A DNA stretch of 61,126 nucleotides from Bacteroidota bacterium (GTDB lineage: Bacteria; Bacteroidota; Bacteroidia; Chitinophagales; BACL12), in contig JAKQVC010000014.1 of assembly GCA_029571985.1 (NCBI GenBank), forward strand, positions 1 to 61,126, read 5' to 3'. A program made the translations under genes and the position numbers. Shown piece after piece: positions 32,254-32,664 of this stretch (its first letter is position 1; each line of letters begins with the position of its first letter). The notes below the pieces were generated by a model that was not told where the DNA came from, ran no database searches, and saw only the letters and a program-made list of their open reading frames with translations.

Positions 32254-32395
32254 TGCTCTTAGAGACCTATTTACTTTAAGTGAACTTGAACCAAATCTAT
32301 TAACGGTTCTATACCGGTAAAAGTTTCCGGCTGCCTGAATCTGCCAAACCGGAGGGCAAAGATACTGTGAATTTTATGTGAAAACAAGGTTGGAG

Positions 32396-32545
32396 AGCAG
32401 TGAGTGGTGAGCAGTGAGTGGTGAATGCGGAATGTTGAGGGCCTGCCCTGAAGTGAAGGCTTTCGGCGCGCAGCAGAGAAAACCTTCTACTGCAGGGGTG
32501 AGGGGTGAGTGGTGAGTGGTGAGTGGTGAGGGGTGAATGGGGAGG
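32396..32545. repeat. low-complexity GGTGAGT tracts around the hairpin repeats
   Basis: A 14-base unit GAGCAGTGAGTGGT occurs twice near 32395-32424. Between hairpin copies 1 and 2 (about 32495-32540) the 7-base unit GGTGAGT recurs about five times with drift. Confidence 0.7.
32446..32497. repeat. intergenic hairpin repeat, copy 1
   Basis: A 52-base unit starting CCCTGAAGTGAAGG and ending CTGCAGGG. Its arms pair with two mismatches and a one-base bulge around a loop ending GCAGCAGA. The flank GGGCCTG precedes it, as in copy 3. Confidence 0.8.
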
Positions 32546-32549
32546 CCTG

Positions 32550-32601
32550 CCCTGAAGTGAAGGCTTTCGGCGCGTAGCAGAGAAAACCTTCTTCTGCAGG
32601 G
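32550..32601. repeat. intergenic hairpin repeat, copy 2
   Basis: The second copy, same length as copy 1 and differing at a few positions (GTAGCAG for GCAGCAG in the loop, TTCTTC for TTCTAC in the right arm). GGCCTG precedes it and GGTGAGGG follows. Confidence 0.8.
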
Positions 32602-32612
32602 GTGAGGGCCTG

Positions 32613-32664
32613 CCCTGAAGTGAAGGTTTTCGGCGCGCAGCAGAGAAAACCTTCTACTTCAGGG
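32613..32664. repeat. intergenic hairpin repeat, copy 3
   Basis: The best-formed copy. Arms CCCTGAAGTGAAGGTTTTC and GAAAACCTTCTACTTCAGGG pair fully except for one bulged base, with a 13-base loop. Changes relative to copies 1 and 2 (C to T in the left arm, G to T in the right arm) restore pairing, which suggests selection for the stem. Confidence 0.8.

Follow-up and report, generated by a model that had tools for sequence, protein, structure and literature searches.

A REP-like family of intergenic hairpins, often seated in heptamer tracts, in a Chitinophagales genome

Studying the interval between an rpoD-type sigma factor gene and a gene for a secreted protein in a bacterium of the order Chitinophagales raises the question whether the three hairpins found there serve one of the neighbouring genes or belong to a mobile repeat. 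The window, by which we mean the whole stretch of 61,126 nucleotides that was analysed, is contig C234 of a 4.01 Mb draft genome in 282 contigs (G000). A sequence-only reading of it had described an array of three copies spaced by 104 and 63 bases, together with GGTGAGT tracts, and had taken the copies either for a REP/MITE-like element or for a structured 5′ region of a neighbouring transcript. The array and its tracts are indeed as described: the unit copies start at 32440, 32544 and 32607, with the same start-to-start spacings, between the two divergent genes (Table 1). Over 65 nt copies 2 and 3 show 97% and 89% identity to copy 1.

Table 1. Features of the hairpin array and its neighbours in the window
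Feature	Position	Strand	Remarks
Heptamer-type tract, TGGTGAGCAGTGAG unit	32391..32424	+	5′ of copy 1
Copy 1: CCTG foot and 52-nt imperfect palindrome	32442..32497	+	hairpin 32446-32497; 79.9 bits
Heptamer tract (GTRGTGR-type, GGTGAGT)	32494..32545	+	lies from copy 1 to copy 2; shares its first bases with the end of copy 1
Copy 2: CCTG foot and palindrome	32546..32601	+	hairpin 32550-32601; 63.2 bits
Copy 3: CCTG foot and palindrome	32609..32664	+	hairpin 32613-32664; 89.2 bits
rpoD-type primary sigma factor, 289 aa	31384..32253	-	neighbour, outside the element
Secreted protein with T9SS C-terminal sorting domain, 333 aa	32735..33736	+	neighbour, outside the element

Copy 3, which is the best match to the family model among the window copies, pairs almost fully, as had been noticed before: the whole stem is paired except for one T in the 3′ arm, and compared to shuffled sequences its fold reaches z = -6.2 as DNA and z = -5.8 as RNA. 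Copies 1 and 2 beat their shuffles moderately or hardly (z of -2.3 and -1.9 as DNA, -1.0 and -0.6 as RNA). The compensatory changes that had been proposed among the three copies could not be found. The 52-mer differs at four positions, three of them in the stem and one at the middle base of the triloop, and no pair is altered on both sides, copy 1 having two mismatches and copy 2 three, while copy 3 is paired. Because all stem changes are one-sided, these three copies alone provide no compensatory evidence. Also the GGCCTG flanks need a correction: the hexamer precedes each copy, but what follows the palindrome on its 3′ side is heptamer tract, the following copy or DNA of unrelated sequence. 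The genome search lists for this contig the three places plus copy 3 on the other strand, in agreement with the earlier reading, which had noticed no further copies in the window, and a BLAST comparison of the array with phages and plasmids gave no match.

The unit is not unique to this locus. A 63-base query gives 39 matches in its own genome, and a search with a covariance model built from 45 copies returned 90 rows, corresponding after removal of opposite-strand duplicates to 77 places in 39 clusters among the matches listed, 20 of which are multi-copy clusters. Since 150 of 1689 first-look candidates were scored in this search, the 77 places are no upper bound. Nor are they a strict count, as the weakest places (C60:26942 with 29.3 bits, C35:84045 with 34.1 bits) are doubtful and two places on C132 (58296 and 58509) represent a shorter palindrome of 36 nt with the same foot. 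This palindrome (CCCTGAAGC...GCTTCAGGG) alternates with the hairpin in inverted, REPIN-like order at C132:58296-58671. Head-to-tail order prevails in 18 of the 20 multi-copy clusters, both orientations occurring in the other two, and with start-to-start spacings of 56-114 the units are 0-58 nt apart. That an assembly artefact of a repetitive tract lies behind this picture is hardly credible. The assembly is a draft and several clusters are located at or close to contig ends; however, there are 39 separate clusters, single copies lie in the middle of contigs and the family itself recurs in another published MAG of the genus, SSF59. The exact copy number per array may still be wrong in such a draft.

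The unit comprises 56 nt, namely a 5′-CCTG foot and the 52-nt imperfect palindrome, in which a 9-bp outer stem is followed by a 10-bp, often imperfect inner stem and the tip, with an unpaired T in the 3′ arm between the two stems. In the alignment used for the covariation analysis (45 rows, 44 distinct) the foot is present in 43 copies and the unpaired T in all 45, whereby the pattern that selected the rows includes this T and allows up to two substitutions. The tip is purine-rich with a GNA triloop in 38 rows and AAA in five, and the non-standard position 29/37 flanking the triloop is A.G in 27 and C.A in 18 rows, without mixed rows. Across this genome-wide family the stem covaries. The proportion of paired cells is 92.0% versus 87.4% in shuffled alignments, and changes on both sides affect eight pairs and 49 cells, compared to 15.5 cells in the shuffles. 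When the structure is slid by one to three columns, 44.7-59.4% of the cells are paired and at most 29 cells (at +1) show double changes. On a further measure there is no excess, with 21 further pair types against 21.1 in the shuffles. The outer arms occur in matching subtypes (CCC/GGG, CTA/TAG, CCA/TGG and CTC/GAG), and because the double changes are tied to a few subfamilies and thus to shared ancestry, their counts do not represent independent events.

The variable tip and the unpaired base led us to consider integron attC sites as well. Such sites carry GTTRRRY and RYYYAAC boxes and enclose gene cassettes; no such boxes were seen by eye in the alignment, and the gaps of 0-58 nt hold no cassettes, so that this candidate was rejected. 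Passages in PMC4686876 and PMC6479982 describe GNA loops closed by a G-C pair as unusually stable DNA minihairpins. This stability hints, without being a proof, that the DNA strand could be the working form of the element.

Studying the gene contexts reveals no preference that would point to a single neighbour. Among the 38 clusters with fetched surroundings, 11 lie between divergent, nine between convergent and ten between tandem genes, and for eight, including C35, no neighbour was found on one of the sides, all of this resting on a crude calling of ORFs of at least 90 aa instead of a gene finder. With the exception of C35, no such ORF is overlapped by more than 15 bases in any of these clusters (37 of 38). 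The setting upstream of rpoD emphasized by the earlier reading is real for this array, but the unit is a member of a dispersed family and not specific to rpoD. Moreover, the sister species G001 has an RpoD protein with 100% identity to that of the window and keeps the divergent neighbour gene, while neither a hairpin nor a model match is present in the interval (L173, L186). A heptamer tract is also absent upstream of rpoD in G001, where the only match, a degenerate one to a pair of GTRGTGR units at up to two substitutions, is located about 300 bases upstream at L173:1204. The same holds for a second locus, C132:36059, whose counterpart in G001 (L193, L194) is free of model matches and of GTRGTGR pairs; both species carry another heptamer tract, CTGATAC, there. 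The unit is thus dispersed between genes, and the sister species lacks it at two orthologous loci. As both sister loci are without the tract as well as the hairpin, they do not demonstrate insertion into an existing tract.

These observations bear directly on the proposed structured RNA, which could be a leader, an attenuator or a bidirectional terminator of the rpoD or the secreted-protein gene. The covarying stem and the high stability of copy 3 as RNA would fit such a function. However, copies are found in every gene context, the sister-species rpoD locus is free of the unit despite its identical protein, copy 3 folds with nearly equal stability on either strand, and an Rfam 15 search of the window resulted in no match at gathering score. 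We therefore regard a structured RNA as very improbable, and a cis-regulatory RNA for rpoD in particular was rejected on account of the gene contexts and the unit-free sister locus. An element without a specific role for rpoD is the best explanation. Of the two readings proposed from the sequence, the 5′ region of a transcript finds no support, and the REP/MITE-like element is supported by the many intergenic copies, by related copies in the sister species and by the two unit-free loci.

In the search of relatives, four out of 99 genomes (the own genome included) match at 1e-3, and five out of 396 do so in an order-wide search at 1e-4. Strong matches outside the own genome are confined to G001, a member of the same genus, with 12 places on three contigs, and neighbouring copies alternate there in orientation within the clusters. 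In an exact pattern scan of a collection of 84,980 species, which would miss the record of the window itself and variants that depart from the pattern, Chitinophagales bacterium SSF59, which corresponds to G001, was the sole holder of the unit apart from two chance matches (Salinibius, Opitutaceae). These two and a single viral match to the pattern are not palindromic. In G001 a composite repeat (C214:7395-7886, C176:58-332) contains two hairpin subtypes in inverted order with a similar spacer and a GGTCTGCC...GGCAGACC palindrome between the units. Model matches in two genomes from other families of the order, G006 (C182, C127) and G128 (C64:448-506), were rejected as family members: they are other hairpins that have a GNA-capped, GGAGCGNAGCGG-like tip in common with the unit. 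A wider pattern, TGAAGTG...CTACTTCA, matches in 135 of the 396 genomes of the order, in most of them at about the level of a control with the pattern backwards. In G015 it has five matches and the control none, and in G010 one match, in both cases with inner pairing recognized by eye. Judged from sequence, these hairpins from other Chitinophagales families tentatively share the outer core with the unit and have other inner stems, and the group of hairpins with this core may extend to these families.

Many units are associated with heptamer tracts. The GGTGAGT and GTAGTGA tracts are both of the GTRGTGR type, which some unit copies interrupt, and further tracts of this type, with the same GACAAATGCA motif after them, are found without a hairpin. 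In a second type, GGAATRA, the units have CTC/GAG arms (clusters on C60, C125, C138 and C181), whereas units with CTA/TAG arms are mostly found in GTRGTGR tracts, so that the arm subtype tracks the tract type. Units outside tracts are known too, namely copies at C132:57675-58671, on C29 and in G001. Among the exact 19-base heptamer matches listed in G000, eight of 18 are located within 100 bases of a cluster (counted by hand). A control with the backwards heptamer gave 41 and 39 matches in G000 in comparison to 57 and 51 forward, which is uninformative because the reversed heptamer is nearly the same as the heptamer itself. Both G000 and G001 are rich in heptamer microsatellites in general (GTRGTGR, GGAATRA, CTGATAC). 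Many of the GTRGTGR tracts end in GACAAATGCA, often with a GC-rich palindrome following, and form a composite dispersed repeat.

The phase of the tract is kept across the 56-mer. Both flanks were scored against the heptamer, and in 20,000 shuffles the right flanks were re-paired with one copy used per cluster. Requiring 12 of 14 letters, the phase is kept in 10 of 10 copies from six clusters, a result reached by 1304 shuffles, so that this strictest setting alone is weak. With 9 of 10 letters it is kept in 9/9 copies (nine clusters; 36 shuffles), with 7 of 7 in 11/11 (nine clusters; 33 shuffles), with 8 of 10 and a clear best phase in 18/18 (12 clusters; 3 shuffles) and with 6 of 7 in 25/26 (20 clusters; no shuffle). 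Six rows had been shifted by three bases before scoring; uncorrected, the 8 of 10 setting gives 17 of 22.

A tract that is in phase on both sides of the unit is expected from precise insertion, but recombination from tract to tract predicts the same. According to this main rival no transposase is needed, and tract and hairpin are copied together between tracts by homologous recombination or gene conversion, with local slippage. The heptamer tracts common to many sites, the phase kept across the unit and the joint absence of tract and hairpin at both sister loci agree with it, and so does, weakly, the spacing inside the clusters: of 38 start-to-start distances, 11 can be divided by 7, where a chance of 1 in 7 would give 5.4. 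Nevertheless we consider it rather unlikely, as the unit also occurs in GGAATRA tracts and outside tracts, the stem subtypes go with the tract type, and the unit interrupts GTRGTGR in different phases (3/4, 6/7 and once 4/5). Still less probable is a MITE-type element that has terminal inverted repeats and is mobilised by a DDE transposase. Its palindrome would be near-perfect, as observed, and a target duplication of 7 bp or a multiple of it would be invisible in a tract with a period of 7, as could be another duplication hidden in the tract. However, the conserved asymmetry of the unit, with CCTG on one side only and the unpaired T in one arm only, is at odds with this type of element, and no autonomous element bearing such ends was noticed in an analysis whose transposase searches covered the Y1 kind.

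The reading that we prefer, and hold to be moderately probable, is that the array holds, in three copies, a hairpin element that is REP-like and non-autonomous and moved as single-stranded DNA, often into heptamer tracts. The element would move as a folded single strand, for example on the lagging strand, and would be recognized in trans through its CCTG foot and unpaired T by a Y1-type HUH transposase, either of the IS200/IS605 or of the REP-associated kind. Insertion would take place beside AGTG- or AGGG-like letters within the tracts, and slippage or unequal recombination could then multiply local copies into head-to-tail arrays.

Candidate enzymes are encoded in both genomes. In G000 a single REP-associated tyrosine transposase (RAYT) scores 90.9 bits with NF047646, where the cut-off is 80, and a single IS200-type transposase, on C181, scores 58.4 bits with a cut-off of 55. 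The Y1 proteins of G001 are one of the REP type, one of the IS200 type just above the cut-off (55.3 bits) and a third Y1_Tnp protein on C16. Of four other genomes of the family, three gave no Y1_Tnp match and one a single match; the assemblies of the genus are 97% and 90% complete. A RAYT, suggested as a check by the earlier reading, is thus present in the genome, but the unit does not flank its gene. In total 18 Y1_Tnp loci from five genomes, with up to about 1.5 kb on either side, were scanned with the model, which found no unit, and also for strong palindromes. The RAYT gene of G000 (C35) carries a different palindrome, GGGTCTCYGACCC, on its 3′ side. This palindrome has eight exact copies in G000, five by the RAYT gene (C35:3884-4226) and three on C112 (23283-23533), and the nearest of the latter starts about 70 bases past the last hairpin of a four-copy unit array. 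Because the RAYT gene lies beside a different palindrome and none of these 18 Y1 loci carries the unit, it is from the hairpin anatomy and from published biochemistry that we infer a Y1-type HUH transposase acting in trans as the mobilising enzyme; part of PMC8266576 describes how REP and IS200/IS605 enzymes read folded single strands through a tetranucleotide on the 5′ side together with an unpaired base or a bulge.

Comparison with known systems supports the verdict that the family is REP-like in its workings. Like REPs and REPINs with their TnpAREP (RAYT), it consists of short imperfect extragenic palindromes in tens of copies with an unpaired foot on one side and a conserved stem irregularity, here the unpaired T, as also known from group 2 REPs of the E. 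coli type. The inverted neighbours in G001 may recall the inverted pairs that are the main unit of REPINs, and each of the two genomes carrying the family encodes a RAYT. On the other hand, the foot is CCTG instead of the GT[AG]G of REPs, and no RAYT gene flanked by the unit was found. In units within GTAGTG tracts a GTAG is located three bases further out, where it belongs to the tract. Unlike REPINs, the unit is arranged mostly head-to-tail in its own genome and often lies in phase within heptamer tracts, and this seat is its unusual feature; tandem arrays as such are also described for REPs and REPINs in a portion of PMC3116915.

IS200/IS605 elements insert precisely beside a short target. 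Their ends, as presented for IS608 and ISDra2 in sections of PMC8266576, are similar to the unit in being folded single-stranded hairpins with an unpaired T, which in these ends is contacted by TnpA, but the unit is a single hairpin without a gene and without a pair of left and right ends. Also comparable is TnpAREP subclass 2.6 of the Bacteroidetes, for which excerpts from PMC6006769 describe atypical REP-like structures without the GT[AG]G tag. In length and in the NH[LIV]H motif the RAYTs of G000 and G001 agree with the 2.6 row of its table, a partial fit only, since both have YIHRNP and the G000 protein shows WE in place of the tabulated WQ. The 2.6 structures, compared here by their description, flank the transposase gene, which the unit does not. 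According to parts of PMC3733652 tagged REPs bear GTAG or CGTC and are predominantly found in Proteobacteria. The CGTC-tagged REPs portrayed there are likewise dispersed tagged palindromes without a dedicated transposase and were also reported from Bacteroidetes; they differ in the tag and in having loops of 4-5 instead of usually a triloop. As the tag of the unit is CCTG and no REPtron was found, the family falls outside the GTAG and CGTC superfamilies. The TAACTGA direct repeats, in segments of PMC4679880, are also intergenic heptamer tracts and occur in some Bacteroidetes too, but have another sequence, and these segments describe no hairpin element within the tracts. Among the papers covered by our literature search there was none on palindromic intergenic repeats in Chitinophagales, none that joins heptamer and palindromic intergenic repeats in Bacteroidetes, and none on REP/RAYT elements inserted in microsatellites.

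A bolder reading, which we put forward tentatively and think somewhat less likely than not to hold, sees in the family a distinct class of tagged single-stranded DNA hairpin elements, defined by CCTG, unpaired T and GNA tip, with heptanucleotide microsatellites as landing sites. It is likewise conceivable, though again with doubt, that within such a class the tract would be a safe and renewable intergenic target that is in phase again after each insertion. A Bacteroidetes family with another tag, covarying arms and a fixed position in heptamer tracts would widen the class of tagged REPs, and it points to a possible role of heptamer tracts as landing sites. Since the family supplies tracts with and without the unit, it offers material on target choice. 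If the enzyme is the RAYT of the genome, it would act on a repeat which does not flank its own gene. If the distinct class is real, it would join in one system two features for which Bacteroidetes genomes have so far offered little explanation, namely the heptamer tracts and the REP-like palindromes.
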